From: Cloeon dipterum
Taxonomy: Eukaryota > Arthropoda > Insecta > Ephemeroptera > Baetidae
Assembly: GCF_949628265.1 (NCBI RefSeq)
Contig: NC_088790.1
Location: 21,518,545-21,582,544 of the forward strand
Direction of reading: 5' to 3'
Length of the DNA stretch: 64,000 nt
The notes under the pieces are model-generated. The model did not search any database, was not told the origin of the DNA, and saw nothing but the letters and a program-made list of their open reading frames with translations. Position numbers and translations under genes: made by a program. Of the stretch, positions 31,390-64,000 are shown piece by piece. Each line of letters begins with the position of its first letter. The first letter of the stretch is position 1.

Positions 31390-34300
31390 ATGGTGGCGAC
31401 AGAGTTTGCAGGAGGAAAGCACGAAAGCTACGACAACGCTGGCGTCGACCTGGAGATCGGCATGGACATTGAGCCGCAGCTGCCCCCGGTGGCGTTTGTG
31501 CCGCCAGAGCAGCCGGACACGTACGGTTCGCTGGTTTCAGTGATGCCAAGTGACCCACCGACCGGCTTCCAGAACTACAAAACCGAGAGTTGCTGGAGCA
31601 CCACCCTGCAGGTGTCGGTGCCCTTCTTTATTGCAGGCATCGGCACCATTGGTGCAGGACTCATGCTCGGAATGGTTTCGGTGAGTTGAGTTGGCTGTTC
31701 TTTGAATGACAAAAGTTTTATTTGTCGATTAATTGTCAGGGTTTTTTATGAATACCTGAAAATACTTAGCTAGAACAATATTATTAATTCCAACACGGCT
31801 GGAAAACTCTATTAAAACATTTTTTTATAAAATTGATTCTGAATTGGATAACAATATATTTTTTAAGTGATGCAATGTTAAATTTGAAGCGTGTTCTCTA
31901 AAAACCAAAGTCACCTTCAAAAATTTTGAAACACAATTTAATTAATTAATTTTATCGACAGGCAAGATTGCCAAATTTAAACAAGAAGTGTTGTCACTCT
32001 ACTTAAAATCATTTTGACCAAAATTTACCTAGACTTTATACTACAATGTTAGATTTTTACAGATTCGCAAGCAACACTGCACGCTTGACATTAAATGCAC
32101 CATCTATTTGATCTCGATTTCATAATTTGCTCACGTCAGTCACATAATTTCGCTGGAAACAGAAAAATATGCACGAATTAAAAAATATCAATATTTAGCG
32201 AAAAGATTATTATTGCGTATCAATTTTGCAAAAACAATCAGGGAACAATTTTGGCTCAAATGTCACGTATCGTCATCTTGTTTGCGCAATCTGTTGGAAT
32301 AATTTATGCGATAGGTTCTCGCTCTTCAGGTTGAGTGAGCACGCAGCGTTAAACAATACTGACTCCTTACGTAAGGGAGCGAGTCTATTTGCGTCCACAC
32401 TTTCCTGTCCTGTTTGTTTTCGCATAAAATATAAATATGTATCCACACGACGTTCGCGCAGAGACGTGTGCGAGAATGGCAATGAGAATTTTTCCACTCT
32501 ATGTCTGCAGCAATGGGAGGTGTTTAAGGAAGTGTCGGAGTTATTCATCCTGGTGCCAGCCCTGCTCGGTCTCAAGGGCAACTTGGACATGTGCCTCGCT
32601 TCTCGTCTCTCCACCCAGGTCAACATCGGGAATATGGTCAGCGCCAAGGATATTTGGTCGCAGATCCTTGGGAACGTTGCGCTTGTCCAGGTATGTTAGA
32701 TGACATTTTGCTAATTCCTTGTTTTAGGTAATAATGAGCTAAATGAATAAAACTAGCGTTGAAACATCTTTCAGTGCGATCAATCATTCATAATTTAGTT
32801 AAACTACAGCTAAATTTAAAATTCCATTATTATCACATTCTAGTCAGTAAATATTTAAATTGTTTCCAGCAGGACGTTCTTGCTTTCCCAATGAATAATG
32901 ATTTAATAAATGTTCAAGAAATCAAATTAACCAAAAAATTGCCTCTGACCAAATTCTATTTCACACAGGTCCAATCCATCATAGCTGCATTTATTGTGGC
33001 CATTTTCGCCGTTTGCATAGGAATAGTCATGAATGGTTCCTTCGAGTGGAAGCACGGCCTCCTTTTGGCGGCGGCTGGGATCATTACAGCCACCTCATCC
33101 TGCTTTTTCCTCGGTCAGTGATTAACGTTTTGCAAGTTGAATTTATCCTAACCAACCACGCTCTTGCCGCAGACTTTGTGATGATAGCTGTGATTATGAT
33201 TTCCCACAAACTGCGGGTAAACCCTGACAACATAGCTACCCCTCTGGCTGCCAGCTTCGGGGACGTCGTCTCCATTACTGTGTTGGCAAATGTGGCCAAG
33301 TTCCTATTTAAATATCACGGTAATTTAGGAATTTTTATGCTTTTATTCGCAGTTAGACAATTATATAAGATTTTGTTCTAGTTTTTCCTTCTGATATAAC
33401 TATTTTATCTATTCATATTTGACGCTTTAAAGTATTCCGTTATTTAAATATTAGATTCTCTGCTGTACGTGACGCCTGGTGTTCTGGTTGGCTACCTGCT
33501 TCTCCTGCCACTTTGGATTTTCATTGTTATCAAGCAAAAACACACAAAGCACGTGCTCACCACAGGCTGGACGCCCGTGCTCTCAGCTCTCTTCATCTCC
33601 GGGTGGGTAGAAATAATCCTTAAACCCCAAAAATTATAATTTATCATATTTATTTTGCCAAAAATTACTTTTTACAGTCTGGGAGGTCTGGTATTGGGCT
33701 CGGTGGCTACCCTCTTCCCTGGATTCGTTGTGTTCCAACCCATCATCAACGGCATCGGCGGCAACCTTGTGTCAGTTCAAACCAGCCGAATCTCCACGTT
33801 CCTGCACAAGACGGTCCATTTGGGCGAACTTCCGTCTTACGCCACCAAACTCATCATCAGCCCGATTGCAGTTCTCTTCCATGGAAGTGAGTTCAACTTT
33901 TTTACCCACGCGGCTTTTATTAATTCGATGCGCAGCTCCACAGGCGAAAATTGCAAGAATTCTACTTTTTATGGCTATTCCTGGACACCTCATCTTTGCC
34001 TATGTTGCCGACTACATTTTCAACGGACAGTCCACAGTTAGCGTCATCTTCATGGCGACATACTTGTTTGTCAGTGTGCTGCAGGTAATTGAAACAATAT
34101 ATTAAATAGTTTATTGTGCCTTAAATTTTATCAAGCAAATCATTTCTGTATTATTTGAAAAGTTAAAAAAGTGATATCCAGAAAAAATGCAAAATTTTTA
34201 ATAATTCAATGCCATTTTAGGTTGCAATTTTGCTGTACTGCGCTCACATTTTGGTGCACTTTGTCTGGAGGAGGAAAATCGACCCTGACAGCTCGACCAT

Positions 34301-34406
34301 CCCCTACCTGACCGCCTTAGGAGACCTTTTGGGCTCTGGCATTCTCGCCCTGGCGTTCCTCTTTCTACGCAGCATCCACCGTGACTACACGCCAGTGGAG
34401 CTATAG
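31390..34406 (+). CDS. SLC41/MgtE-type Mg2+ transporter, copy A
   Basis: Eight coding exons: 31390-31680, 32511-32690, 32969-33113, 33173-33319, 33455-33602, 33678-33886, 33936-34084, 34221-34406. Phases join cleanly to 484 aa. An acidic cytosolic N-terminus (about 75 aa) precedes TM1. The first MgtE half carries [20 protein letters not shown] (in exon 2) and [15 protein letters not shown]. The second carries [17 protein letters not shown] and [15 protein letters not shown]. These paired motifs define the SLC41 family, whose members move Mg2+ at plasma, basolateral or mitochondrial membranes; the Asp residues line the ion path in MgtE. The length is close to that of SLC41A1-type proteins. The acceptor at 31384/31385, just before the ATG, implies a non-coding 5' exon. 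Compared with copies B-D it keeps both introns flanking the second MgtE motif. A possible poly(A) signal is at 34970-34975. Confidence 0.93.
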
Positions 34407-35149
34407 GATTTTCCTCGTGAGCTTTTCTCAAACATCAAAATGAACCTGCACGCGTGCCTGTGATACTATTAAGGAAGAGTACATGACATAGTGGTAGGGT
34501 GAATGTTCATTTATGTTTCCGAAAGACTCCGTTTCTGGGGATCTGTTTTTCAAGAATTACTATCTATTTTTATAGATCACGAACAAGAATATTCTACTGC
34601 TTGTAATAATTGCTAGTATGCACTCCTATTAGAAAGAAATTTTTCTGAAAGCGTACCAAACAAGAAGTCAATTTTATGCATTTTATAAGTTTCATTCCAA
34701 ATAATATCTACGTGCGTGGAATTTGAAGTGCAAAAAATTGTATTTTATAAATTGAGCAGCCTGATTAATTTTAAGCATCCAAACAGGAGGCGTTTATAGA
34801 CCGTAGACTAGATGTTATATTAATTATTCCTCAAATTCATAAACGCCTGACACCTAAACTTAAACCAACCTTCTGAAATTGTGTACCTTATTGAATTAAA
34901 CAAATTGAGACAAAGAAACATAAATTTATAGAAATTTCATTTCCAACAAATACATAATGAAGCACGTAAAATAAAATTATTTAAATAATGGAAGATTGGA
35001 AGGGTATACGAACAAAAACGACAAAATAGTACATAACAAACCACAACAATGCCAGTAATTTGTTAGTGTTGAAATCTGAGATTGGAAACAAGATTATTAT
35101 TATATACTCGTGATATACTAGTGATATCACGCGACAGAATTGTTGTCAG
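34407..35149. other. 3' UTR of copy A and spacer
   Basis: AT-rich. It contains an inverted repeat AGGCGTTTAT (34788-34797) / ATAAACGCCT (34839-34848) and a poly(A) signal candidate at 34970-34975. No gene is seen. Confidence 0.45.
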
Positions 35150-35365
35150 TTGTCTGATTCATTCATTCATTGAAGCACGGCCCAGGCCAGCCTCAATATA
35201 ATTCTTTCGCTCCATGTGCGTTTGGCGCCAATCACCACAAAAAGCGAGCAGTCATTGGCTGACGATTTAATTTCTCCCTCCCATTCATTGGTCCAGCGGC
35301 TAGCCGCCATATTGGTGCTCACAAGAAGTAAACAAATACAATACACAGGCGAGTGTCATCAGCAG
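35150..35365 (+). promoter_or_regulatory. promoter and non-coding first exon of SLC41 copy B
   Basis: Several CCAAT boxes in both orientations (GCCAATCACC, CATTGGCTG, CATTGGTCC, ATATTGGTG) and a CCGCCATATTGG element crowd 35230-35320. The island ends in a strong donor, CAGCAG|GTGAGTTTG, at 35365. An acceptor TCTCCAG at 35741 would join it to the exon holding ATG 35818. There is no TATA box. Confidence 0.45.
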
Positions 35366-35817
35366 GTGAGTTTGTCGAAATTAAATTAGACCCTTTCGGT
35401 GTCGCAATTTTTCGGCACCAGCTGACAAAACAACGGCAAGCAGGTCTGTTCGGTAGAAATCGAACAATAAATTGCGCTGTTTGCGCCGGTGTGGCTGATC
35501 ATGGGTCTAAAGAAAAGTGCACAACTCGGGCACGAAAGTGCATTCGCAGCACTCAGCCCTTATCGCCGGCAAACAATATTCGAGGTCCTTGCCGCACGCA
35601 AAACAGTGCGACGTGGCTAGGCCGAGTAAAGAGAAACTGAGCCAGCCAGTTTGCCGCCTTCAAAATATTGATTTTTGAACAGCGATATCAAGTGGCCGGA
35701 GATAAGGGATTGAGGATTTTTTTTAATCGTTTCGTCTCCAGCTGTTTGGCTGCAGAATCATTCCAGTGAGTTGGCTGCGTTTTGACCTTTTGCCTCGGCA
35801 TTTCTATTGGACTCAAA

Positions 35818-38800
35818 ATGAGTCAATATTCAAGTGATCAGTTTGTAATTGACATGGAATCAAGTGGTGAGAGAGACACGGGATAAATATTATCTATTTT
35901 GAAAAACAGATTGCATAGAAAGTTTTTGTGTTTAATTAGGATCATTAGGATAGTTATTTTTCTGTTTCAGGAAAACATTTCTCAGATTCGTCGTTGCAAT
36001 GGTAAGTTATATAATCCAATTATTATATTTTTTGTTACTATTCTGACGCTTTTCATTTCATTTTTCAGACTTCTGAATACATATTTTTGTTTGAATGATA
36101 TTTGCAAAGAAGGATTATTTCAAGTTTGTGAGTCCTAAGTTAAATTTCATTTAGTACAATTTAGTAGAGTAGTGAAGCACGGTTTTAGCTTTGTGCAGTA
36201 TTATACTCTTTTTCGGTAAAACTTCAGAGCTCTTATTTAACTATATTGGTTTCATTTTTTTAACTTTCTGACTTTTGAACACTTATCAACGCGTTTAAGT
36301 CGTTTCTTAATCGCAACTTCTGTAAAGCCCGATAAAAATGTTGATCGGCCTCGATAATTTGTTAGCGAGTAGACTTGCGAAACAATTTTTAATTAATAAA
36401 TCGCATCTTGCAAAATTTTAATTGAAAAATTACATTGCATGATTTTTTAATACTTCGTTCCAAACAATTAGAGCTGTTGGTCGTAGTCCAAATTTCGGTG
36501 GAGTGAGTTTTGTTTTGCGTGGAGGGGCGAAGTGTGCTAAAAATAAACACCCTTTGTCTGGGGTGAAAGGAGAAGCCAATCACCTCTTTAAAGTTTGCTC
36601 TTTTTGCGGTTGCACACGCGCGAAAATCACAGATATTCCATAACAGGTTTTGTAGAAGATCGTCCTGAACCTTTTCACTGACACTTCTACCCTGGCATTA
36701 ACTCATTGATTAATTCACCAGGGGTACCTACGAGTTTGGGAGCGACATGCCGCCCAAGGGTGCGAATAAGAAGGGCGGCCGGCACAGAAAAGGACGCAAG
36801 AATATGGCGAGCCTGAACGGCGGCGGCGGCGAGGATGAGGTGAGCCTGATGGCCGCTGCCGACCTGGAGCTGGAGGAGGACTTCCAGGTGCAGCATGAAC
36901 CCAAGCGGAAAAAGAGTCAGGCAATTCCAGCGGCCAGACACAAGTTTGAGCCCGAGGAGAACGCCTTCTCCATCGCCGTGCAGGTCTTCATTCCCTTCCT
37001 TGTGGCTGGATTGGGAATGGTCGGCGCCGGTCTCGTCTTAGATATAGTACAGGTGAGTGACTCACAATCACCTTAAAAAATAGAAAAATTGCTCAATCAA
37101 CACACAATAAGTGGAGGGAGAGAGCAATTTTGAATAGCTCCAATTTAACAGGTTATGCTAGGCCTGGAAATCAATCAAAACAATGTCATTTTTTTGGGAA
37201 GTAACTTTAAATTTTATATAAATCTTTTTGAGTTAGATTTCAATGGTCAAATTTTAAATTTTCTTGCAATGCTTTGGATTTTAATTACTTTATGACATTA
37301 GATTTTAACAAAGTGGCTCCGCTTTGCGTAAATTTAATTTTATAAAATTTCTTGCGTGTTTACATCTATGTTTTTTCTGTTTTAAATACTTTGTCCAATT
37401 TATTAATTCTTGAATGGAGTAGAGAAAATACCCTTAATTAACAATAAAATTTTTTCAGCACTGGGAAGTATTTCGTGTGGTCTCAGAGGTGTTCATCTTG
37501 GTACCAGCTCTTCTGGGCCTCAAGGGAAACCTGGAGATGACGCTGGCTTCTCGTCTCTCCACGCAGGCCAACCTTGGCTACATGGACACCCCCAAACAGC
37601 AGTGGAGTCTTATCGTTGGCAACCTCTCATTGATTCAAGTAATTTTTGCATTCTATATTCACAAGGTTTGCAAACTGAGCCACATTTATTTGCAGTGTCA
37701 AGCTATTGTCGTTGGCTTCTTGGCCTCGATGGCTGCCATGATCATGGGCTGGATCCCAGAGGGAAAGTTTGACATTGACCACGGCCTGCTGCTTTGTGCC
37801 AGCAGTTTGGTCACTGCCTCCCTTGCTAGTTTTGTTTTAGGTAACAACGGCACTTCTAGCACTGCTTCGAGGATGTATTGTTTCTTATTGATACATATTG
37901 CAGGTATTGTGATGATCGCTGTGATAATTGCCTCAAGAAAATTCAACATTAATCCTGACAACGTTGCCACGCCAATTGCTGCTAGCATGGGAGATCTGAT
38001 AACGCTGACCCTGCTTGCCTGGATATCCTCTCTGCTGTTTGAGGCTATAGGTAAATACATTTTTATTGCATGGAGAATTTAAAAATCGCAACTATACCCA
38101 AATATTGTAAATCAAATCAAAGACTTATATCAGGACTGTGAAATTAAGACGGCTAAATATTTTATTTGGAGCTCAAATTGCCATGGGAATGATACAATTT
38201 TAAGCTATTTTCACTTTTACAACCTGGCCGTTGGCTCGCATGGTTAAGGCATCTTTGGGAGTTTCAAATGAATGGGAGATATTCTAGAATTCGGGTATCT
38301 ACTTCTGGTTGCCCAATGCCAATGCCAGAGATGGTAAATTGGGTTCATTAAAGTGACTTGGAATACTCAAATAGCTCATCAGGCTGGGAGGCGCACTGGC
38401 GCCGACTCTCCACTTGTCTTGCTGGTTTTTGAACCTTTTCAACGGCTTTAGGACAAATGTCTGGCATTTTAATTAAATATCTCGGTGCGGGGAGGCAAAA
38501 AGATGGCCACAGGGGCTTAAGCTATCCGCTCGAGAGTGTTATTGAGACCCTGGTGAGCTGAGCAGAGGTTAAAAAAGTTTAAATCAATCATTGTGTACTT
38601 ATTCAATTAAGTTGGATCTTTAAAAATAAATAAAGAGCGTTGAAAGTTAACAGCCGTAACTTTTTGTAGCTGAATAAAGCATTCCTTTTCTTCAGAAACC
38701 CAGCCCTGGTTGGCACCGTTGATCATCGGCTTCTGCCTACTCCTGACGCCAATTTGGGCCTGGCTGTGTCGGCAAAACAAGCACACAAAGGAGGTGCTCA

Positions 38801-40637
38801 GCTCTGGCTGGACCCCAGTTGTGCTGGCCATGCTGATCAGCAGTGTCGGCGGCGTCATCCTTGATCTGACCGTGGCTCTGTACAAGGGTATCGCCGTCTT
38901 CCAGCCAGTCATCAATGGCGTTGGTGGTAACCTTGTGGCCGTGCAGGCCAGCCGCATTTCCACCTCCTTGCACAGGGACTCGAAAATTGGAACCCTGCCC
39001 TCATACGCATCGAATATATGCCTCAGTCCTCTTGCCGTTTTCGGTGCCAAAGGTAAATACAAATTGTTTTTGCTGCATACTTGTTAATTTTTTTACAGTG
39101 CTACATATTTTAAGTTTTTTAAAGCAATTACTATGGATTGAATATTTACATTCAAGTTTGTGAAAGAAAAATCAATCCTGTTAGCGCTGTTTCCCCAAGA
39201 ATAGGGATTCCTGAATTTTAACACAGTACCTGCATGTTCTAAAGCATTAACTATTATATTTTTCATTTAAATCCTACTGAAGATATTTCTCTTGCGAGTA
39301 TGGTGTAGTTTTTTTTAACTTGGATTTTAGGTTGCCGTTCAAAATTATCTGTATAAATTTGATCCCCATCTTTCCACAGGTGGACACGCAAGGACAGCTC
39401 GGATTTTGCTTGCCATGGTCATCCCAGGCCACTTGATTTTCTCGTACACAATCAGTTATCTACAAGCAGGACACACATCGTTGACTCCCATTTTCGTTGT
39501 TGTATATTTGCTGGCTGCTCTCATCCAGGTAAAATTGATTGAATGCTTAAGCTTTCCATAGTGGGGCTAATTGGCTTTATAAGAACTCATATAAAAATTA
39601 ACTCATCTGAGTGAACTTGTGTTCAGCATCAAATGTAAGCTAGTTTAATCGGTGGGCAGTCACCAGTCGCCAGACAGTTAGGCTTGACAGTAATCATATC
39701 ACACGTTTACAATTTCCGCTAAACACGCACTTAGCAAAAATACAAAATACATATCATTTAACGCATGCAATGCTAGAGACTACCATGCGACTACTGTTGA
39801 AAAAAATGAGACACAGTTTTGCGCAATAGGCTTTGCGATTACCAAAATATAGAACGCCAAGTTAAAATACGCAGAAATGAAAACGAGTCTAGTTATCAGA
39901 CTTTGGAAGTTGACAACTGCGTCAACTTGTGCAGTAGCAGAGCAATTATGAAGCTAAACGTGATAGTAAATTTTGCAGTTAAACTTTAGGGGTCAAGCGA
40001 AAAGAATGCTGGATGAAACATTTTGATTTGCCGTCAGTTAAAGAAAAGCATCATTAATAAACTACATGTTTTTAAATTAATTTTTCTGACATTCGTCTCT
40101 TCCGCGTGAATTCAAGGGTAAAAAATCAAATGTCAATTTTTAAACATTTAACAGCAGGTTCAAGTTGTAAAATTAAGATATAAATGGCATATAACTTTTG
40201 TTACTTTAAAAAAAGAATTACGACGCAGTGTAAATATTTTAATAGATTTTTTTTTCAAAGTCTTTTAAGATTGACCACGCTAGCTACACAGTCAAACTTT
40301 TTAAAACGTCTCCATAATAATAAACTAGTGCCTATTTTATATAAAATTCTCAATTTGTAGTCACACATCAGTTTCACTTGATGATTAACGTTTTTAAAAT
40401 TAAATTGAATTTGACCTGACAAACATATTGTAAAATTTTAATTTTTTTCAGGTGTCCCTGTTGCTTTACATGTCGCACGTGATGGTGCACTGGATGTGGA
40501 CAAAGCGAATCGATCCTGACAACTCGGCGATCCCATACCTGACTGCTTTCGGCGATCTTCTGGGAACAGGTCTGTTGGCCATTGCTTTCCAGTTCCTCTA
40601 TGTCATCGGTGATCGCGACAGTGACGTCGGCGACTAA
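35818..40637 (+). CDS. SLC41/MgtE-type Mg2+ transporter, copy B
   Basis: Nine coding exons: 35818-35866, 35971-36001 (31-nt microexon), 36722-37052, 37459-37638, 37696-37840, 37904-38050, 38696-39052, 39380-39528, 40452-40637. They join to 524 aa. If the internal ATG at 36747 is used, the product is 489 aa. ATG 35818 is preferred because no other ATG lies between the acceptor at 35741 and it, and both new junctions keep frame ([17 protein letters not shown], then [21 protein letters not shown]). A basic patch ([12 protein letters not shown]) follows in the cytosolic tail. MgtE halves: [20 protein letters not shown] and [32 protein letters not shown] and [15 protein letters not shown]. The role is Mg2+ movement, as for copy A. 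The intron before the second motif is absent (merged 357-bp exon). The poly(A) signal is near 41105-41110. Confidence 0.92.
35971..36001 (+). other. 31-nt coding microexon of copy B
   Basis: TTTCAG|GAAAACATTT...CAATG|GTAAGTTA has near-perfect splice sites. It enters in phase 1 and leaves in phase 2, exactly as needed between 35866 and 36722. It encodes KHFSDSSLQ plus split codons. Confidence 0.6.
38226..38572 (+). repeat. tRNA-derived SINE-like element
   Basis: Inside copy B intron 38051-38695. The 5' end (TTGGCTCGCATGGTTAAGGC) resembles a tRNA A box and AATTCGGGTATC, about 35 nt later, a B box. The body ends GTGTTATTGAGACCCTGGTG, then GAGCAGAGG and an A-rich run. The 3' third matches both arms of the repeat at 15622-15837, showing a family in this genome. 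Confidence 0.6.
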
Positions 40638-42289
40638 ATGAGCGTTGAGTTATTCTGTTGAATTAATTCCATTCGAACTCATGCGGTGATGTTGTCGATT
40701 AATAGTTTTGGAACCTCTAGTCTTGCAATTTCACTCGGGTTAGCCATAAAGAAACGTGCTCAGCTGTACCGTAAATTTCTCATCTATCGTGTCATTTGTG
40801 AGAATCAAAAGTGAACAAGACATTTTATCACTGCTTTATTTCAAACGATTTTTTGGTTCCTTTTGGATACTTTAACCAAGGTGTCATCTTTGGATTTGAT
40901 TTGCAATTGCGTGACTTGCCAAGTGAATTTTTGATTGAACCAAAAGGTGCCTTATTAATCAGATATTGATGAATGTGTACCTCTTGTTTCCCACCACCTG
41001 TGTTTTGCGTATTATCCAGTTGCAAACGAACGCCACTAAAGTGTTATAGGCTCTGGTGAAATGGAAAATTAGTAATTTATTGTTATCCAAAGTTAATAAG
41101 TAGTCAAATAAAGAATTACATATCACGGCCTAAACCTTGAAAATTATTTTATAAATGTGTTCCTACCAAGGGGAAATAGTTATTTCTTTGTCCTCCAAAT
41201 ATTTTTATAGACAGTTAAGCATTTTAAGTTGCATTTCTGTGCAGCAACGAACGGATAAAAACTTGAATGACTGATTGTTACAGCGTTCAGTGTCCAAGCT
41301 GTAATCCGATTGGTTGTCTTAACATGAAGCGCGCTCATGTCAGTTGACTGCTGATTATTACTTAATGATTGTGAGGGAGCCAGCAAATTTGGTTTTGCAG
41401 AGAGGAAAAGAGCAGCGTCCCTGTTTCTTAATATTGTTTTGACAGTTAGTTATAACGATTTGATGCTGAATGCTAAAGAGTCGCTACGATTTAATATTAT
41501 TTATGATATGCTTTCATTAATAAAAAAACTGCGCTTGAAGAATCAATATGTGAAAAATTTTGAGTTACTTAAAAATCTTTCGGTTGAAATTAAATGCAGC
41601 TTTCTTCTGTATTTCAAGAGAAATTACTGCTCAACTAGTTTTTGTCACTATAATACAAGAGCTGACTTGAGCATTCATAAAAATTAGAGTTCGTTAATAT
41701 ATATTTCATACAATATTTTCCCGTCAACGTGTACTAAAAACAAACGTTACATGATATTTTTTCCTGTAAATCGAGTCTTGGTTTCATTGATGGTATAATA
41801 AGAGATACATTTTAGCATTATGACGAAAGTAAAATTGTTCTAAGACGTGTAATGCATTTACCATCCTATGTTCCCTCTGTGGAAAACTAAATTTTAAAAG
41901 TGACTTAGATCGGCTCATTCTGTTTTTCCATCTGCAATTCCCAATTTAATGGTTTTAACCCTTGCCCATAATTTAAACTGGTACTGTATTACATATTTAT
42001 TGAACGTTATAATTGTTGCTTAATTTTAAAAAACTATTCTCTAATAAAATAAATTATGCTAAATTATTGATAATGAAAAGGAATAAAAACAGAACAGGTG
42101 TCAGCAACAAGTTGTAATTTGGGAGCAATTAACCTGCTTCCTCCATTTACGAGTATTTTTGGATTACTTCTTGCAGAGTAAACAATAATAATTGCGACTT
42201 CCCCCGCCACACACCTTTCATCGTCGGTTTAAATTAAAAGGGTTTGGTTGCCTTGCGAATCGAAGGACTTTCCGGGGCTAATTGGCCAC

Positions 42290-42473
42290 CCGTGCCTCGG
42301 CGAGAGAAGAGACATCGGAAGCCGGGGAGAAATTGCGTTCACTCGGTCACTGTGAGTCGTCCTCTCGCCACGACGCGACACCCGCCCGCCCAGCAGGCCC
42401 CGTGAGGCTTCCGACGCCCCTGGCCAGACCCCAACCTTCCGGCCCTGAAATTTCATTTCGGCGATTAAAGTCA
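42290..42473 (+). other. GC-rich candidate first exon
   Basis: A GC-rich island in an AT-rich spacer that ends in a strong donor, AAAGTCA|GTAAGTATC. No protein family is visible in any frame. It could be the start of a lncRNA or a distant alternative first exon for copy C. Confidence 0.25.
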
Positions 42474-48154: not shown

Positions 48155-48205
48155 AAGAATATAATATTATATTATATTTAATATTATATTTATAATATTA
48201 AATAT
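48155..48205. repeat. AT-palindromic simple repeat
   Basis: An interrupted run of TAATATTATATT units that can fold on itself. It is likely slippage-prone simple sequence. Confidence 0.8.
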
Positions 48206-48382
48206 TGTAAAATCAAATGTTGTAAGCCGTCATAATGTGTGGTCAAATTTTGTGGCTCTGTAAGATTTGAAAAGTAATGGGAACGGGAGCAACACAAATC
48301 CATTCATTTCGGGAAGAGTCTCTTTGGGTGGCCACAATAACAAAAAGGAGTCCATGCTGAGCGCTCCCACGATTTGAGGAAG

Positions 48383-48418
48383 GGATAGGATTTGAGGAAG
48401 GGAAAAGCCAATTCTTTA
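48383..48418. repeat. short tandem duplication
   Basis: GATTTGAGGAAGGGA occurs twice, about 18 nt apart, within purine-rich DNA that ends in a CT microsatellite near 48550-48566. Confidence 0.7.
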
Positions 48419-51279: not shown

Positions 51280-51492
51280 GCAGCCGGCGCTATATTCGCT
51301 CAGTTCGAGCCCCCTTGCGCGTGACGTCACGCACGAGCCGAGCTGCTCGCGGTTGGTTCGGGCTGCGCTCTTTAGTATGCCACATGCTGGTCGTTGGCAT
51401 CACTCGTCGATCGCGCGCCTTTCGTGCTCAGCTATAATGTAATTCAATCGCAGTTATTAATGTTATTCCATAGCGCATTGGACTTTCCAAAG
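51280..51492 (+). promoter_or_regulatory. CRE-bearing promoter and likely non-coding first exon of SLC41 copy C
   Basis: A GC-rich island with an initiator-like GCTCAGTTCG near 51300 and a perfect CRE palindrome TGACGTCA at 51322-51329. It ends in a strong donor, CCAAAG|GTGAGTAA, at 51492. Splicing to the acceptor at 54850 would make ATG 54916 the first ATG of that exon. It is the best of several candidates for copy C. Confidence 0.35.
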
Positions 51493-53757
51493 GTGAGTAA
51501 ATTGCTTATTTTGCACGGAAATCGGTGAAAAAAGGGCGGCTCGGCAAAACGGGGGTGCAAACCGTCGCAGTAGCAGCCCCCGCACTCCGTTGACTCCGTC
51601 CACGCTGCTCTCTCCGCTCTCTTCTCGGGAAATTTAGGGGGAGTAATTTATTCTAGCAGCCGTGGGACGTTTCCAGCTTATTTTTTGAGGGTTTAGTAAA
51701 TGCTGATGCAATAGATCCGGTTCGGCTGGTTCATTTCTCGGGCAGATACTGCGGACAATCCCCTGGCGGCTTTTCACCCCGTTCCCCGCACACTACTTCC
51801 AGCCTCTTAATGCGCCGATTTCGCCACTCGCGATGGAGGGAATTGTGCCAACGAGCGTTATTGATCCAACCCGACCTAACTTTGACCTGAAAAACGTTTC
51901 TTTTCCACGCGGTGCCAAATTCGCGACCCGTAGAACGTTCCACAACCGCGTCTATAATCAGGAAGCAGAACGTTTTCCGTTAAAAATCGAGCGACCACGT
52001 GGTATCGGTGCTCGCACGGAAGCCAGACTTTGCACCGAAAGGTGAAGGCCAAAGACGGTGACGGCACCGGCACGCACTGCACCGAAGAGTGTGGTGCCCC
52101 CGTGTTGCCTCGAAGAATTCGGCCCTCGCAGCACAACTGGCACGGCCGAGCGCATTTAGCTGAGCAATCGCAATTCACAAATAATTCGCAACCTTGCAAT
52201 CGACTTGCCAGCTAACCGACACCCCAAAAAGTAGTTCAAGCGTGAAGCTAGATAAGAAGCGAGAAATTCGATGAGATTAGTAACAATGAGGAAGCCGGCG
52301 CGACTGAAAACTGTTCACACGCTGAAGTGCAATTTCACGAAAATCAGAGACAAGGACCTGAGTCATTCTCATGAATGGGATTATTCATCATTGCGGAGGC
52401 GAGTGAATCATTAATTTGTAGGTTTGAGATCAAAAATTGGAAAGGCTAACAAGGAAATGTAATTTTTTCGTTTTCTTGAATTTATACGAGTTGTATTAAT
52501 CTACAATAATGCCACAAATAATTATTAAAAAATAAAGAATACAAAGGTAACGAAAAATACTAACGTACTAAAGGCGTGCCATTGTGAAAGTCTGATTTTT
52601 ATAAATCTCAGGTGGCGGGGTCAAACAAATGAAAAATTGTTAACTTTTTTCCTTCTCTGAAAATTCCCGTCGGTTTAAATATGCTTTTTCCTCGAACGTA
52701 CGTTAACTCTTTATCATTCTTCCTTCTCGAGCATACCTCGAGATATTTCGTGCGGCGCCATAAGAGCCGCGAACCAAACGTTTTCTAAACAAGCCTCATA
52801 CAGTGAAGAATAACGCCGCTCTCGCGGTCCGTCTGGAATTTCATTTCAAGGCGAACGCCGACTGAGATTTTTCCTTGCGTGCGGCCAGGTGCACTGCGCT
52901 CTTTCCTCACAAAGCACCATTCATTCCACTCGCTGTCTTGGCCGGTATTTCCAAGCTATGCGGCGGCCCGAAAATGACTTATCGAGTCACATGATTCTCC
53001 AGGGGAGCAGGATACGGCTAATTGGATTAGCTGGGCTACAGTGTCGGATTCCCGCTAGAATGTTGCCCGTAGGGGAGCAGCATAACGTACACAAATATGT
53101 GGTTATAGATTACACGTGTAGGAGGTGAAAATGAGTACCCACCTCAGCTACTCGACGTAAGAACATGGAGGGCGGGACGTGTAACTTACCTGAAACAAAA
53201 TAGAAAACATTATCAAATATAGCCAATAAATGAGAATCGTAAAGGCAGAAATTTTTGTATAACTGATTGGACGTAATTGTTTTTGATGCCAATTGACTCA
53301 AGTTACAAATAATATGAGCCTTTGATGACGTAGATGCAAATGACCAGAAACCTAATTCTCGTAGGTCACTTGGGTCGATTAAAATAGTATTAGGTTCAAT
53401 TGCCAGTATGTTTATATTAAGCATAGCTCGTGCAGTTTTGCAAATTCAACGTGACTAGCTTGCTTGCAACGGACAGGGGTGCGACGTCAACCCTGGGCTG
53501 GTGCTCCAGCTCGAGGCTCGACCCACATTCGAAGCGCTAAATGGGTTTCTAGAATTCGCGTGCGCGCAAATCACGCAGGTAGACAGCGGGTGACACTAAA
53601 ATAAACACTCGGGCATATCGCGTAAGAAGCCACTCGGCGATAAATAGCTCATATCACGCGTCACTCAATGCAAATGCGCAATACCAAAATAAACAACAGC
53701 GTGCGTTAGTCCTAGCGCTATTAATTTGACTGTGTTGTTTTGCATGATTGCGATTTG

Positions 53758-53832
53758 TATAAATACGAAAGAGAGAGTAATCGAGCAAAGGAGTTTCAGT
53801 CGTCCTGCTGAACCAGTTTGCACTTCAAACGG
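53758..53832 (+). promoter_or_regulatory. TATA box and initiator, alternative start for copy C
   Basis: TATAAATA at 53758-53765 and TTTCAGTCGT, with its A at 53798. The 40-nt spacing is longer than the usual 30. A donor-like ACGGAG|GTGGCA follows near 53832. It could be an inducible start for copy C. Confidence 0.3.
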
Positions 53833-54915
53833 AGGTGGCACACTTAAATTTACACACACGTCCTTAAGTCTTGAATGAATTGCGCAACACAAGCCACTAT
53901 AAAGTGACTCACGTTGCGATAGAAGCGCCCAATTAAGTCTGATTCATGAAACAGAACCGCCAAGGAGATAAAATGAAAATCGATGGTCGTGTGACACCGC
54001 GCTGCTGCGGTTGGTGTTTCTCTTTTCCAGCGGGAAACGCGTGCCTGCGCCACTTTTCTAGCTCAGCATCGGCTCGCCAGATAAAATTGCTTACCGGTGA
54101 TGTTTGCCACCAACCTTGTTCACACGATACCTGGCAACCCTTGCATGAGACAAAATTTCTGCGTGCGTGTATATCACCTGAGAGCACAGGAATCGCAAGC
54201 CGTCCGTCTAGACGGACTCGAATTACACGCCATGCAGTTGGCAGAAAAAACGTGCTCGTATCCAGGCGAGACGAAAAGCCTGCTCCTCATTAAACAGCCT
54301 GCTCTTGTTCAGCCATGACCCCAGCTAACAAAAATTCCGTTTGGAGCCTGTTGGCAAGTGCGGGATGAAAAGAGACACTCGCGACTTGCAGTGCCTTATA
54401 AAGAGGATAATATAAGAAATGAGTAAAAGCTTAAATGTCCCTGGGAGCGTCAGAAGAGCAGAAATAATCCCGCTCACACTGTAAAACTGCTAACAATGTT
54501 AAGCAAGAAGCGCTAGCAGCCGAGTTAGTAAACATTTGTAATGTTTTGTAGTGTTTGATTTTTTTTAAATTGGCACGCTGAACATGAATAAACATGCTTT
54601 AATCTGAAGAAATAGAGAGCCTAAGACGGTAGACAAAATAGCAAAAAGCATTAATTTTTGTGGACTCCTATACCGCGAGCATGAATATTAATTTCTACTC
54701 ATCTTTTGATTCGCAGGGGGCTGCATTGTACAGGGTATGCCCAGATCCGGTTTGGAGCTACCCATCGTCGACCACAACACCAACACTCACCCTAAAACAA
54801 GCTTCATCGCGAGCTGCGTCTTTTCTGACGGTCCCGTTCTTTGAGAGCAGCAACCATTTCGGCTTCCAAAGTGAAATCGGCCGCTGCGGCCTCGACTCCA
54901 TCCAAGCTGCTGAGG

Positions 54916-57499
54916 ATGCTGTCCAAGGACAAAGACGCCACCGCGCCCATTTGCTTGGGCGAGGAGGTAGTCGAGCTCATCGTCGACCCCATTACCATTC
55001 AGGTAAAAATTAAAAAAAAATTATTTATACTGAAATAAATTATAATTATGCAAATGAGAGACTTTGCAGTCTTTCCATTATTATCGGTTCTTTTGATATT
55101 TTATTTTGATTGTTTACTGTTTTAAAGATTGATTCAACTTTTAAGGTGGTCAAGGAACCTCTCGTGGACGACCCTGGCGACAACAACGGCGGACGCTTGC
55201 CAGACGTGGTGGCGGAGACAACAATGTTAGCGGACCCTGCGGAGGTGGTTCAGAAGAAGGATGAGAGTTACCGTGCAATGGCCCTACAAGTTTTCATTCC
55301 GTTCTTGGTTGCCGGACTTGGAATGGTTGGAGCAGGGCTTGTTCTTGACGTCGTTCAGGTATTATATTCGAACCTTAATTTTTCCCACAGTCGTTGCTCA
55401 TGATTTTTATCTTTAATCTCCAGCATTGGTCAGTGTTCATGCAAGTAAAGGAGTTGATGATTTTGGTGCCGGCTTTGTTGGGATTAAAAGGAAATCTAGA
55501 GATGACTCTCGCGTCTCGTCTCAGCACCCAGGCAAACTTAGGACATATGGACACGCCAAAAGAGCAGTGGAGCATGATCGCAGCTAATCTCACGCTAATC
55601 CAGGTATGAAACACTTTCGAGATATTAGATTATGCAACGCGGAAGGAGGGCATTATGTGCAGTTAAATGGATCTCATATGTGACAATTATTTATGTTGCA
55701 ATTGCAGTGCCAAGCTATTGTGGTTGGATTTCTTGGATCAGTAGCTGCGTTGATTATGGAGGCCAGCAAAACTCAGACCTTCAACTTGGACCACGCTTTT
55801 CTCCTCTGCGCAAGCAGTCTCGTGACCGCCTCCATCGCCAGTTTTGTCCTAGGTATATTTCCATTGCATGCGAATCCACAGATAAACTATTGCCGCCATA
55901 AATAACGGGGCATAGGTCAATATCTGATTTCTTATGTAAACACAGAAAGAAAATATAATTATGTTACGTCAAGTTTGCATTCTGCATAATCTAAACTCTT
56001 GCGTGTCCGCAGGACTGATCACGGCCGCGGTAATAGTTTTTTCGAGACACTGCAACATCAACCCTGACAATGTGGCCACACCCATCGCGGCCAGTTTGGG
56101 CGACATCACGTCCCTTGCCTTGCTCTCTTGGACTTCGACCCACCTCTACAACGCTATAGGTGTGTTAAGGATTTTATTTAGCACGAACAAAATTTAATTT
56201 AACAAATAATACAGGAAAACAAGACTGGCTGGCACCGCTCATCATCTCAGGTTATGTGCTAATCACACCGCTCTGGGTTTGGATCGCAAAACGCAATAAG
56301 TACACCCGCGAAGTGCTCTACACTGGCTGGACACCAGTGGTAATCGCCATGATAATCAGCAGGTAAGCTATTTTTTAATTTTCAAAATTAATGAATAGTG
56401 AGTTTTAAATTAAATGCAAGTTCCTGTGTGTATAACAAACTGCTTGCTTTTTGTGCTAAATAAAAACGAAAAGATAAACAGCTTGCTATACACTGAGGAA
56501 GTTTATATTAATTACAACGGAAATGTTGAGTGTTTATCAACTTCTATTGACATCTGCTGACAATTTGGAGAATATGTGGCATTTTAATAATTCCTTTAAA
56601 CTATTTTAGCTTCGGGGGTTTCATCCTGGAGGGAATGGTCGCGCATTTTGAAGGATTCGCCGTCTTCCAACCTGTTATCAACGGAGTCGGTGGCAACCTG
56701 GTGGCTGTGCACGCTAGCAGGATCTCAACCTCCCTTCACAGGGACTTCCAGCCCGGAATGCTGGATGACGAAGAAGGCGGCCACAGCAGCGTCTGCATTA
56801 CACCAGGCCAGTCTTTCCGCGGCAAGAACAAACATTCGCGCACATGCCGCATCCTAATGTGCATGGTGGTGCCTGGACACCTCATTTTCGTCTACACCAT
56901 TCACTACATAAAAACTGGAAACTTGGGATTATCGCTGTTGTTTCTTGCTGGCTACCTCGTCGCAGCACAAATTCAGGTTTGTTTTTCAAATGATTTAAAA
57001 TAAAATTAGGAGCTAAATTGAAAGTAAAAAAATATAATAATTACAAAACGGCTAATCTGCGCGAAGTAGATTAAAGATGATTGGCTATAAGAGTGAAATT
57101 CGATACTTCGGAATATTTTCTTGTAGAATTATTGCGATATTATAAGAGCAGAAAATTTCACTCGTAGCCACCCATATCCTTTGTCAATTCAGCGTAAAAA
57201 AGAGCCACAACGTTTATTTTTAATTTTGTCACAGTTCCCGTGTTTCAATTTAATTTTTCCTGCTCAAAAATCACGTTTAAATATTTAATTGACTGGGGAA
57301 ATTGTGCACACAGGTTGGCATTCTGCTCTACATCGCTTACATCATGACCCACTGGATGTGGAAGAGACGAATCGATCCAGACAACTCAGCCATCCCATAC
57401 CTCACTGCCATGGGCGATCTTTTGGGCATAAGTTTGCTTGCCATGGCCTTTGGCGTCCTGTACGTTGCTGGCAACGATGGTATCTACATGAAACAGTAA
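54916..57499 (+). CDS. SLC41/MgtE-type Mg2+ transporter, copy C
   Basis: Eight coding exons: 54916-55002 (exon itself starts about 54851), 55128-55358, 55424-55603, 55708-55852, 56013-56159, 56215-56362, 56610-56976, 57314-57499. From ATG 54916 they join to 496 aa. The N-terminus is uncertain: the frame is open back to the acceptor near 54850, so an upstream coding exon is possible. MgtE motifs: [52 protein letters not shown] and [15 protein letters not shown]. The loop after the second motif is longer and acidic ([11 protein letters not shown]) than in A and B. The intron that splits this loop in A and B is missing, as in copy D. Mg2+ transport is inferred from the family. Its nearest relative in the window is copy D, by intron pattern and shared 3' flank. 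The poly(A) signal candidate is at 59020-59025. Confidence 0.88.
57082..57170. repeat. imperfect inverted repeat in the last intron of copy C
   Basis: TGGCTATAAGAGTGAAATT (57082-57100) pairs with AATTTCACTCGTAGCCA (57154-57170): about 16 pairs with a small bulge and a 53-nt loop. It may be a structured intron RNA or a short mobile-element relic. Confidence 0.6.
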
Positions 57500-59115
57500 T
57501 CTTTTTCGAAACCGAATATTTAAGTAAGACTGCAGAAATTGGCAAGACGATTTTTATAAAAAAAGGACCCTGCTCTCACATTACTTCTTGCATTATTTTC
57601 GATACAACTCAGTATTGGCTGGCCCAACGATCAAAATTGCAACACAGGACAAGGCACGAGCTATGAAATTTCTTCATACCAGACTAACTTGCAACTTCAA
57701 GTTTACTAAAATCATCTACTTTCACGAAATCCCAAAAAACTTTTGATTTGATGACAAACTAAACTAAATGTTCGGCTCGTTTTAAAATGTTTAAACAATA
57801 ATAATCAACGTGCAATTAATAGGGCGGCCCTTATTCCTAGCTAGATACACGAGTAGAACAGTTAACAAATGTACTGTGATAGAGTTGATTGATCCCAAAA
57901 GCCCGAGAACATCCAACTTGCATGCAGCTTGTTTGGCGTCAAATTCCAAAATACGACAACAATTCCTGACTGAGCTGCTTTCATGAGACTTTGTCACACT
58001 TACAAGCTTCGGAAATGCCTCGTTTGAAACTTGTATTTTGCACGTTCCAACGCCATATTCGCAAAGTTTTACCATTTTACCAAGATTATTTTTGCCTATT
58101 TTTACCCCAAAGACCAATCATCCTGGATTATGCTGGGTAAAGTTTCATTAACCCTTCATCCCCCGATGCACACATAATTTGATCATAGCCCGTCTAGTCT
58201 TTTTAAGTTGAAATTGTTTTCACCTTACTTCCAAAGATAAGTCGCGAGCTTTGTTTTTAAGAGAAAGAGCCATCGGGGGTGATCGGTTTCTTCCTACTGT
58301 TTTAAATTATTTTCAATTTTAATTTTGAATCGTATGTGTGCTTCAATAAATAGTTCCTTTCCTGCGCAATAATTTCTGAAACGAACAATATATTTCTTCA
58401 GCAAAGTGGCCTGAACATCATTCCGTGAGTTCCACCTCAGGTCTTGCTTGATAATTATTGCATTTATCAAATTTCACTTCTGATAATAATTTATTTCAAA
58501 ATTAGATTCCTTTCGGCCGTTTCATTGAACGAGAGTATCGTCTTCTTTGAAAGCCTATTAGAATTAGGTGCCATTTTAAAATAATTATTTTCAAATTGTG
58601 TTTTAAAACAGAGTTTGTCGCACTTTTAGTACTTAAGAAGTGTCTCAAAATTTGTGAAATCTCGGAAAAAGTAAATGTATTTTCTTATGGGAACAACTAG
58701 ACTTTTGAGTGTAAACGTTTGGTTAATAACCAATTACTTTTAAAATCTCCCCACTAAAGATTTTGATCTGATGCTATTTCAGTATGTTGGCATTTTATTT
58801 GAGTAAAAAATGTGCTGTTTGATTTTTTATGATTGACTGTCCTTCACTAAACACGTGGAATTCGTTTATGCTTGTTGGTAACCACGACATTAGTTGTTGC
58901 TATCACCCGACGAGTTGTGTTTATTGTTGAGTAATTAAGAGTGTTGCCTGATGTTGAAATCAAAAAGTATCAGACGAAAGTGTTTGTGCCAAACATCCTG
59001 TACGTGAAATTTTAAGATCAATAAAAAGTGTTGATTTAAAAGTACTATTTTCATTAACTATCGAATGATCAACCTCTCGATCCATATTGGTTTTTAATAA
59101 TAGCAAAATTCAGAA
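57500..59115. other. 3' UTR and downstream flank of copy C
   Basis: AT-rich. Segments from about 58340 onward (CAATAAATAGTTCCTTTCC and GATCAATAAAAAG near 59017) resemble the flank after copy D (62500 and 62670), marking the duplicated block. No gene is recognised; a 108-codon minus-strand ORF at 57791-58117 has no family features. Confidence 0.45.
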
Positions 59116-59178
59116 TTATTTCAGAAAGAAATGCCCAATTTTCAGGAGAGTTTTCATCTGTGGCAAGGAAAAGTAAAA
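59116..59178 (-). pseudogene. relic of the sugar-transporter 3' end
   Basis: On the minus strand this matches, with scattered changes, the last codons of the transporter at 62766-62825: shared CAATTTtCAGGAGAGTTTT and GGCAAGgAAAAGTA (lower case marks differences). It has gaps and no open frame, and nothing else of the transporter precedes it. It travelled with the duplicated SLC41 unit. Confidence 0.65.
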
Positions 59179-59389
59179 ATTACAGAATCATGACTCGTGA
59201 CCAACTTCTGTATTACTGTTTTTACTATAGCTCAATCAAATTGAGATTGGACATGTAGTTGAATTTTTTTATAGCAAATATTTGACTTTTAAAAGGTGTA
59301 CTACAAAAGGAACTTTCCGATGACCCGGTCTAGTGACTGAAATTGCAGATAAATACCGGACGAAGTATTAAAAAAATAATAACGATAGA

Positions 59390-59822
59390 AAACCCTGAGG
59401 AGGCGGTTCAAATAAAGGAGGATTGAGAGTTACAATGTTCGCGTCTCATCTTACAATTAGCACCCAGGCCAACTTAGGACGCACGGAGACGCTGACAGAT
59501 AATAAGCGCGTAAAACTTGTTTCGCGCTAATCGAGGTACAAACACTCGTAATTAGAGAGTAAATTAGTAAATTGCTACCAAGAAGGAGATCATTTTATGC
59601 TGCTAGCTGGATCTCACGAGACATTAAAAAACGCAGGATTTTATAATTATTCAGCAGAGCATCTCTATTACAAATAATTGTCGACGAAAAAAATAATCAC
59701 TCAAAATTATAAATTTTCTAAGGAGCATGACGCCCATTAATGCCATCATTCAACATTCATTGCAGTGCCAAGCTATTGGGGTTGGATTTACAGGATCTCT
59801 ATTTGCATCGGTTATAGGGTTT
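59390..59822 (+). pseudogene. decayed SLC41 copy between C and D
   Basis: Three remnants lie in order. About 59395-59440 resembles the exon 2 start of copy C (GAGGxGGTTCAxAxxAAGGA) but has TGA in frame. About 59445-59535 resembles exon 3 (GCACCCAGGCCAACTTAGGA, then CGCGCTAATCGAGG) with insertions and lost codons. About 59764-59820 resembles exon 4 (CAGTGCCAAGCTATTGGGGT). Intron sequence between them is also related to copy C, so this is an unprocessed duplicate, not a retrocopy. Most of the TM1 exon and everything after exon 4 are gone. Confidence 0.75.
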
Positions 59823-60225
59823 TACAAACCAACATTATCAAAAATACTTTTAAACAAATTATCACAGGCATAAAATCCTCACAGGCATGTACAGAAGTCT
59901 CCAGATATGCTTTAAACGTAATTATTAACCGTTGTCACAATTAAAATTACTATGATGCCTCGCTGATATCTGAGCGAGGCGGTTAGCGGAAAGGTCACCT
60001 GTCCACTGGTGACCACATAAACCAGGCCAATCAAAATCCGTCTAATATATTTTCGTGCTTTTCGACTATATGTTCTCTTGCACTTTACACTTTATTTCGT
60101 TTATTGAGAATAAACATGTGAAAGCAAACATTTGATGTTTTTAAATAACTTTTTGGGGACGAGCATCGCATCGAGCAAAGCGACTTCAGGTGAACACTTG
60201 ACAGACGTGGTGACAGAGCAATACA

Positions 60226-62415
60226 ATGTTGGCAAATCCTTCGACGCCGGTTCGTAGGAAGGATGAGAGTGACCGTGCAATAGTCTTTCAAATTTTCATT
60301 CCGTTCGTGCTTTCAGGATTTGCAACGATTGGAACAGGAATATTACTTGATTACATCGATCAGGTACGCCATTTGAGGCAAAGGTTTACAGCTTTCAGCT
60401 AAAGATTTTTTTTTATTTCCAATCCAAAGAATGCGACTGTGTTCAAGAAAGTAAATGCGACGACGATTTTGGTGCCTGCTCTGTTGGGTCTGAAAGGAAA
60501 TCTGGAGATGACTCTCGCATCTCGTCTTAGCACCAAGGCCAACATAGATAACATGGACACAACGGAAGATTTTTGGAGCATGATCAAAGCTAATCTCGCG
60601 CTAATAGAGGTACGAACCAAATGAGCCACGTGAGATTGGGGTGATTGGACGGGTTTTTGAGACGCCTGAAAAACTGTAACTTAACTTTCCTTGAAGTCCA
60701 TCTTTTCAGTTTGCACACTTTTCCCGGGATTTTTTAATTACTTAAAATCAGGGCAACCACTCACTTTTCCGACCTCTGACCTGACTGACCTCGACTCCCA
60801 TCACCTTTCTGAGTATTTTTAGGAAGATTGGGTTACATCTAAAATTTCAAACGTCTTAAAAACTGGTCCGATTGCTCCCTCAAACATAAAAAATAAGAGC
60901 AATTTGCTGTCATTTTGGATGATATATAAGTTGCAATTGTAGTTCCAAGCTATTGTGGTTGGATTTCTTGGATCACTAGCTGCGTCGATTATAAATGAGG
61001 CCATCGAATCTCAGACTTTCCACTTGGACCACGTTCTTCTCCTCTGCACAAGTAGTCTCGTGACCGCTTCCATCGTCCATGTCGCCCTAGGTATATCTCA
61101 ATTTCGCATACGTATGAACGATTTTTCACCGAAAATTTATCAGGGAACTTAGTGCTTCATCTGCTAAATGATTTACTAAAAAATAACAATAAAAGCCATT
61201 AGGTTCGCATATTTTACATTATTTTAATTTGTGTATCTGCAGGAGCGATCACGATATGTGTCATAAATTACTCACGTAAGTGCAACATCAACCCAGACAA
61301 CGTGGCCATACCCATCGCGACCAGTCTAGGTGACTTTGCGTCCGTCGTCGTTATATTTTTGTCCACAACCTTGCTCTATAGCGCTGAAGGTCTGTTTAGT
61401 CTACCGGTGATCCTTAAAAATTAATCCAAAATATTTTAAGGAAGTTTAAGGTGGGTTGCATCTTTAATCTTCGTGGGTTTAGCGTTTCTCGCAGTGTTCT
61501 GTTTCCGGTACGCGAAATGCAATGAGCACACTCAAGAAATGCTCAAAAGAGACTGGTGGTGGCTACCAATGATGGTTGCCATAGCAATCAGCGTGTGAGT
61601 AATTTTAATTTTCTAAAAATTAGAGACCTAGATATTCTTGTGTTAATTGAAATTTTTTCAGCATGGGGGGTTTCGTCCTACAAAAAACGGTCAAAAAGTT
61701 CAAAAAGTTCGCAGTCTTCCAAACAGTCATCAATGGTTCCTGCGGCAACCTGGTGGCTGTGCAAGCTAGTAAGATTTCAACCTTTCTGCACAAGCACATC
61801 CAGCCTGGAACGGTAGACGAGGAAAGCGGCAACACGCGACGAATATTTGTTTCGCTTGAACATACCTTGTACGGTATTAATATAATATCGCGTACTTGCC
61901 GCTTCATATTGGCTATGGCGTTTCCTGGACACATGATTTTCCTCTTTTTCGTTTACATAACTAGACGCGTGCACATGTCGTGGGTGTTTTTAACTAGCTA
62001 CCTCATTGTTGCAGAACTTCAGGTTTGTGCTTTAATATATATTAAATAATAGATTAGTAATCAATTAATTTCAATCAAAATTTGGAGCTCTAAATTGGTT
62101 AAACACAGCACATGAAATTACTCCTACAAATTTGCAACTAGAAAAATGACGATTTATAAAGATTGAAATTAAGTTCTAATAACTTGAAAATTGTGTTCAC
62201 AGGTTGGCGTAATGCTTTATGTTGCATACGTCATTACCCACGTGTTGTGGAAGTCGAAATTTGATCCAGATACCTCAGCAATACCTCTGTTAGCTGCTTT
62301 GGCCGATTTAGTAGGCGCAGTTTTCCTTGCCTTTGTCTTTAACGTTCTGAACATTACTGGAGCTGAATTTCCTGGCGATGATCTTTCCGGGACCGAAATG
62401 CTACTACGACAGTAG
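60226..62415 (+). CDS. divergent SLC41/MgtE-type transporter, copy D
   Basis: Seven exons: 60226-60363, 60430-60609, 60943-61090, 61243-61389, 61441-61594, 61662-62022, 62203-62415. Phases are intact with no stop, giving 446 aa. The N-terminus is only about 18 residues before TM1: sequence upstream of ATG 60226 still resembles copy C's exon 2 but is out of frame by one base, so the long cytosolic tail was lost. The first motif is intact ([35 protein letters not shown]). The second is altered: [17 protein letters not shown] instead of [15 protein letters not shown], and [15 protein letters not shown] instead of ..GD, with the Asp kept. It could be a transporter with changed selectivity, or a gene in early decay. 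Its C-terminus is longer, with an acidic end. The poly(A) signal candidate is at 62671-62676. Confidence 0.82.
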
Positions 62416-62765: not shown

Positions 62766-64000
62766 TTATTTCCTGAAGGAATGTTCAATTTCCAGGAGAG
62801 TTTTGCCTTTCGTTTCAGGCAAGAAAAAGTAGACAAAAGTTGTCCCAATAATCGAGATGGTTCCGAAAATGAGAAAGACTAAGCTTTCGCCTAAAAGAGC
62901 CAGCATGTATGGGTAGCTCTTTACTACGGTGAAAATGAATATGTAGACGATGCACGTAATGAGACCAGATGCAAGTCCTCTGCATTTTTCAGGCAGCAAC
63001 TCGCCCAGCATTACCCAGGGTATCACAAGGAAACCTTTGAAAATGCGTTAAATTTTAAAACGTTAAGAAAAATTGACTGTTACCAAATGTATTAAAGGCA
63101 ATGAAGCCAGTCATGCAGGTCAGAGAGACGGCAAGCGATGGTGTCTCCTGCAGCTGCATAATGGTGCCCAATGTGATCATGGACACTGACATGCCAACGC
63201 CAGAGATAATTGACACAGGGCGGCGGCCAATTTTGGAGAGAATTACACAGCTCAGGCAAATTACAATGAGCCTGGCCACCCCGATGACCACGGCAGATTG
63301 GTTGCTGGACAATACTCCACTGTCCGCCGACTGGAAGATCTGCACAGCGTAAAAAATTACGGCATTCATGCCGCAAAACTGCTGGAAAAAGAAGAAGACC
63401 AACATGACCAGCAGGGGTCTTCTGGAATGTTTGGAGACGAGAGATTCCCAGGCGGAAGTTGTGTCCGTAGTGTCCTGCGCCCGAAAACTGAGAAGAAAAA
63501 TACAAACATTAAAGCGATGCAAAGACATGCATGGGAATATTAACCAATTACTGTCGTCAGATCTCTTGTTGAGCCAGCGCATGGCTTGGTCAGCTAGTGT
63601 GTGCTTGCCCTTTGCCCTAAGCCAGACCGGGCTCTCAGGCAGGAAATGCATCACCAGGAAGTGCAGAAGCGGGACTGAGGCGCAAGTTGCAGCTACCACG
63701 TTCCACTGCAGGTGCGACGCGCCCATAACGTACACCACCAGCATCCCCATCGAAAATACAAGGCTCGGCGTCGAAGCCAAGTAGTTTCGCAGAATTGGCG
63801 TGGTGATTTCGCTTATATAAACCTGCGAGCGACGACTTTAAAAATAATTATACTTTTGATTTTCCATCATTTCCTACTTGAATCGTGCAGTCGACCATTC
63901 CGCCGCCTAGGCCGGTTAGCAGGCGTCCAGCGTAGAGGGTTAACACGTTTGAGGATAAGGCTATCAGAATCCAGCCGATGAAAGTGGGAACGCACTGCAT
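62766..64000 (-). CDS. MFS sugar transporter, facilitated trehalose transporter (Tret1)-like, 5' incomplete
   Basis: Four exons in view (high to low): >64000-63878, 63822-63545, 63487-63084, 63034-62766, giving 357 codons to the stop; the N-terminus is beyond the window. Family signatures in order: LYAGRLLTGLGGG (TM4), VYISEITTPILR, PESPVWLRAKGK (end of half 1), QQFCGMNAVIFYAVQIF (TM7, the sugar-binding QQ..G.N), SKIGRRP (TM8-9 loop), IPWVMLGELLP (TM10) and PETKGKTLLEIE (C-terminal end). These fit insect Tret1-like facilitators that exchange trehalose or glucose with haemolymph; the exact sugar is not decided. The 63544/63543 donor is weaker (TTG|GTTAAT) and was chosen because only it keeps frame with the acceptor at 63488. 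The gene converges with copy D. Confidence 0.88.

Follow-up and report, generated by a model that had tools for sequence, protein, structure and literature searches.

SLC41-type transporter genes of the mayfly Cloeon dipterum: a probably composite cluster with an old core and one young, divergent copy

Did the SLC41-type transporter genes that lie head to tail on one stretch of mayfly DNA arise together in a recent, lineage-specific expansion? The stretch, here called the window, comprises 64,000 nt of the Cloeon dipterum genome (contig NC_088790.1), and the initial annotation had proposed that a local expansion produced its four intact genes, here termed A to D, and a dead fifth copy, which might reflect a lineage-specific use of Mg2+ transport. 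The results lead us to regard another explanation as probable, namely a composite cluster of SLC41-type transporters, in which one young and divergent copy, the relaxed gene D, was added to an old cluster.

The four genes were modeled by frame reading and spliced protein-to-DNA alignment. All of them are encoded head to tail on the plus strand, their reading frames run without interruption from the ATG to the stop codon, and every intron is bordered by GT and AG (seven introns in A, six each in B, C, and D). The complete coding sequences, the introns, and the matches to PF01769 confirmed that four intact SLC41/MgtE copies are present. The region from 31390 to 62415 extends from the first base of the ATG of A to the last base of the stop codon of D, and the gene models are as follows:

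31390-34406, plus strand: gene A, SLC41, 8 coding exons, 484 amino acids; fast-evolving partner of B, two PF01769 stretches, two copies each of PX6GN and P(D/A)X4PX6D
36747-40637, plus strand: gene B, SLC41, 7 coding exons, 489 amino acids; slow-evolving, two PF01769 stretches, motifs present
55224-57499, plus strand: gene C, SLC41, 7 coding exons, 435 amino acids; slow-evolving, two PF01769 stretches, motifs present
60226-62415, plus strand: gene D, SLC41, 7 coding exons, 446 amino acids; probable young duplicate of the C lineage, frame intact, dN/dS (ratio of nonsynonymous to synonymous substitution) near 1, two PF01769 stretches

In the C model, the assignment of the start codon is the weakest point, because an open stretch lies upstream in exon 1. 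The gaps between the genes are 2,340 bp (A-B), 14.6 kb (B-C), and 2.7 kb (C-D). The spacing given before was thus right for B-C (14 kb) and C-D, but the value of 1.4 kb for A-B was too small.

The family was also analyzed in the organism's own genome (190 Mb, 10 contigs, with the window at 21518545-21582544 of contig C5) by Pfam and protein searches. Six SLC41 genes were found, i.e., A to D and two further genes, E and F, which form a second cluster that is also on C5, at a distance of about 12 Mb:

contig C5 9582655-9578627, minus strand: gene E, SLC41, matches PF01769; the loci L009-L011 cover the E-F region, 9573161-9582655
contig C5 9575160-9573161, minus strand: gene F, SLC41, matches PF01769; one intron has a GC donor

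All 42 matches of protein B at E<=1 fall into the six loci A to F, although this search scores only the best candidates (37 of 37 here), and a very diverged seventh copy could escape it.

Synonymous divergence was quantified for all gene pairs. Of 80 fourfold degenerate sites, 26 (0.33) are not the same in C and D, and the values for the other 14 pairs are between 0.61 and 0.81. The proportion of synonymous differences was 0.69–0.82 in these 14 pairs, which indicates saturation, and 0.72–0.80 in the five of them that belong to A-D. Low synonymous divergence within A-D was found for C-D only. For this pair, the NG86 method yielded a dN of 0.355 and a dS of 0.593 over 430 codons, and the ratio was 0.60 (bootstrap 0.46–0.77). 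In the DNA alignment of C and D, the identity was 61–86% in exons and 49–63% in introns, and the gaps in exons 1-6 amounted to totals of 3, 3, 6, and 6 bases. The dS of the pair was 0.35 for exons 1-3 (C 55224-55852 versus D 60226-61090) and 0.76 for exons 4-7, which is a hint of gene conversion.

The protein cores of A, B, and C differ at 34–54% of the residues (identity 45.5–65.7%). Together with the saturation of their synonymous sites, this indicates that the duplications that led to A, B, and C are old. The core identities were 66.9% for E-F, 65.7% for B-C, 51.2% for C-D, and 50.4% for A-B, and the other 11 pairs range from 37.7% to 51.2%. An unrooted tree consists of the three pairs AB, CD, and EF, with bootstrap values of 93–100%. 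The exon plans agree with this pairing, because one intron that is present in A, B, E, and F is absent from both C and D. A, E, and F have 8 coding exons, and B alone lacks another intron.

Between C and D, a relic of a further copy was found by a blastn search of the window with the four genes masked:

59439-59816, plus strand: relic of a fifth copy, comprising the end of exon 2 (59439-59616) and the start of exon 3 (59759-59816)

Exon 2 of C matched with 67% identity (E 2e-5), and exon 3 of D and C matched with 81% identity (E 3e-9 and 1e-8). In the controls, the best E value was 0.010 when the window was reversed and 0.060 among five 8-mer shuffles. The order of the exons and the strand are the same as in the intact genes, and stops occur in all three forward frames. 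Exon 1 and exons 4-7 of the relic were not found by this search, and a protein search of the window would not have revealed the relic (best E 0.074). The dead copy postulated before is therefore real, but it is a short fragment of exons 2 and 3. The DNA-level closeness of C, the relic, and D shows that some local duplication has occurred. Among the DNA matches in the masked window, only those at 59.4-59.8 kb exceeded the controls as SLC41 exons. Protein matches elsewhere in the window were weak, and the best one (E 0.06 at 5252-5443) looked unrelated, so a dead copy at another site was rejected. Matches at 15.6-15.8 kb were ruled out as an SLC41 relic because they derive from a repeat within an intron of B. 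This intron stretch (about 38466-38575) recurs at 15607-15844 in pieces of 82–86% identity and in both orientations, and it resembles a short dispersed repeat.

If A-D had arisen in a single recent tandem expansion after the split from other insect orders, A and D would merely be fast-evolving members of a young local group. The common strand, the close spacing, and the shared exon plan would fit this scenario, as would the local duplication of C, the relic, and D, and an unrooted split between ABCD and EF is indeed present. However, the saturated synonymous sites and the low core identities of A, B, and C argue against it. In addition, with the three-pair topology, A-D can form a group without E-F only when the tree is rooted on the EF branch, and thus an outgroup is needed. 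Provisional sequences of human SLC41A1 and SLC41A2 were used as outgroup. With these sequences, E-F grouped with C-D, and a single clade of A-D obtained a p value of 0.034 in the approximately unbiased test with all eight rows and of 0.149, 0.049, 0.078, 0.133, and 0.33 in five reduced row sets. These trees are a lead that leans against the monophyly of A-D relative to E-F, and they are not decisive. No SLC41 relatives that could have served for rooting were confirmed among 18 pattern matches in viral contigs and 37 in prokaryote contigs. Overall, we consider a single recent expansion to be rather unlikely. Of the expansion proposed in the initial annotation, the local duplication of C, the relic, and D is retained, but one expansion giving rise to all of A-D is not supported. 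The sequence comparisons indicate that the A, B, C, and E/F lineages split long ago and that C, the relic, and D form the recent, local part of the array.

The relative evolutionary rates of the genes were not uniform. The numbers of unique changes in D and C were 98:16 with B as outgroup and 72:26 and 69:22 with E and F, respectively. For A and B, the numbers were 102:18 with C as outgroup and 59:31 and 67:29 with E and F. The rate controls were even, with 34:26 and 27:29 for B:C and 27:28 for F:E. The pace of change is thus much higher in A and D than it is in B and C. In a codon model, the dN/dS ratio (omega) was 1.42 for D (0.84 when C was also left free), 0.27 for C, and 0.04 for the background. 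The one-ratio model was rejected with a twofold log-likelihood difference of 138, and an omega of 1 for D was not rejected (p 0.30).

The high rate of D raises the question whether the gene is dead, under selection for a new function, or relaxed. A young pseudogene with a frame spared by luck would be in agreement with a dN/dS that is indistinguishable from 1. It would also explain why, of the 122 residues that the other five proteins have in common, 28 are changed in D, four of them prolines. The proline of the second PX6GN motif is among these and is replaced by threonine, so that D contains only one PX6GN motif, together with both P(D/A)X4PX6D motifs:

61723-61725, plus strand: codon 277 of D (Thr), the site of the second-PX6GN proline of A, B, C, E, and F, located by motif scan and DNA alignment

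A further change, from GD to AD, precedes the conserved aspartate in the second half of D. Nevertheless, D does not contain a single stop in 446 codons, whereas neutral simulations led to averages of 6.1–12.2 stops. With 0.5 substitutions per codon, only 2 of 1000 neutral runs were free of stops, and with 0.8, 1.2, or 1.5 no run was (1000 runs each). Changes from hydrophobic residues to D, E, K, R, N, Q, or H were depleted (8 of 110 versus an expected 18.7%), and only 1 of 1000 neutral runs reached such a low value. The six GT-AG introns, the small number of gap bases relative to C, and the branch-site fits, in which about 30% of the D codons are still strongly constrained, are also not expected for a pseudogene. 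We therefore regard a pseudogene as improbable.

Positive selection on D for a new function was nominally significant in a branch-site test (twofold log-likelihood difference 7.36, p 0.003, omega2 3.2). However, the branches that served as controls were also significant for C (p 0.004) and B (p 0.026) and marginal for A (p 0.050), and only E and F were silent. Furthermore, the signal was confined to exons 1-3 (132 codons, p 0.010), for which the fits hit a boundary, and it was absent from exons 4-7 (279 codons, p 0.36). Because the control branches react and exons 4-7 of D gave a null result, positive selection was rejected, and only a loss of constraint is claimed. Selection for a new function appears very improbable to us.

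The sequence of D is best described as relaxed and sub- or neofunctionalizing, not dead. The encoded protein may work poorly, differently, or only together with a partner. A more specific, tentative idea is that D is a neofunctionalized SLC41 paralogue that has given up the canonical second half-pore, with its membrane scaffold and its first half-repeat left in place. We consider this unlikely, albeit less so than the alternatives rejected above. If it applied, D might perhaps be an asymmetric transporter with an altered choice of ions or a regulatory partner of C.

The identification of the genes as members of SLC41, a known family of two-domain MgtE-like transporters, is right as judged from domains and motifs. 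All six proteins match PF01769 and, at E<=0.001, no further Pfam family, and a CBS domain is not present. Two PF01769 stretches per chain were found in A-D, and this bears out the claim that each intact copy has kept both MgtE half-repeats, in the case of D without the proline mentioned above. According to a section of PMC9276622, SLC41 proteins contain two copies of PX6GN and two of P(D/A)X4PX6D. A motif scan revealed the same for A, B, C, E, and F, and in both features these genes resemble animal SLC41A1, SLC41A2, and SLC41A3. In contrast to the latter, the six genes of the mayfly are arranged as two clusters on a single contig, and gene D lacks a motif proline and has a dN/dS near 1. Bacterial MgtE channels share PF01769 and the two motifs, but they are described in sections of PMC9276622 and PMC13022745 as homodimers with one PF01769 domain and CBS domains, whereas the mayfly chains contain two such domains and no match to a further Pfam family. 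B is the nearest of the six to human SLC41A1 and SLC41A2 (62.8% and 61.5% of the core), which is a lead only, as the human sequences were provisional. A profile of the six proteins did not match any solved chain at E<=0.01, and a match of exon pieces to an acetylglutamate kinase structure (E 0.001) was rejected as meaningless.

Enlargement of SLC families by duplication is likewise described for other arthropods, e.g., SLC33 in aphids and SLC22 in Lepidoptera, in parts of PMC7487162. SLC41 is absent from the main text of this arthropod SLC survey, and literature searches did not find a paper on an insect SLC41 array.

Taken together, the following course of events is proposed for the composite cluster. 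Old duplications would have led to the A/B, C, and E/F lineages in an order that is not settled, and the C lineage would later have been duplicated locally at least twice, yielding D and the copy of which only scraps are left. If MgtE dimers and human SLC41A1 are taken as a guide, the two half-repeats of each protein would form one pathway for divalent cations. Human SLC41A1 has been reported to move Mg2+ in a Na+-dependent manner, which is disputed by others (passages of PMC9276622 and PMC13022745), and the direction of transport and the Na+ coupling of the mayfly proteins would be deduced from such reports. By the same analogy, A, B, and C are expected to function as Mg2+ carriers. B and C, the conserved copies, most likely bear the basic Mg2+ role, and A and D would be fast-evolving daughters. 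In D, constraint would be mostly gone on about two thirds of the codons, and the frame, the splice sites, the hydrophobic core, and all but one of the four canonical motif copies would have been kept.

Several points weigh against this proposal. The placement of E-F depends on the provisional human sequences. The deep synonymous branches are saturated, and thus the omega of the background is only approximate. The low dS between C and D could in part, namely in exons 1-3, stem from gene conversion. Lastly, the fast change of D could also be late decay of a frame that has still not been hit.

Some further features were observed in the window and the genome. Exons of a sugar transporter (PF00083) lie on the minus strand at 62766-63837 and converge on gene D, and at the left of the window an exon of a Patched/sterol-sensing-domain protein (PF02460, PF12349) lies on the minus strand at 3821-4339. 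RNA families were not found at gathering score within 28000-64000. Among 25 candidates from a genome scan with PF02949, only five exon matches were odorant-receptor-like (contigs C2, C3, and C4; loci L012 and L013), and one of these five resembles the end of the co-receptor Orco.

These results correct a tempting story, as the neat-looking array would be mostly old, with one copy that is young and very fast. Explanations of the array by freshwater life or mineral use are only speculation. The genes A to D, with the conserved copies B and C and the divergent copies A and D, would form a natural series for learning which regions the SLC41 transporter, which is poorly understood, can do without.

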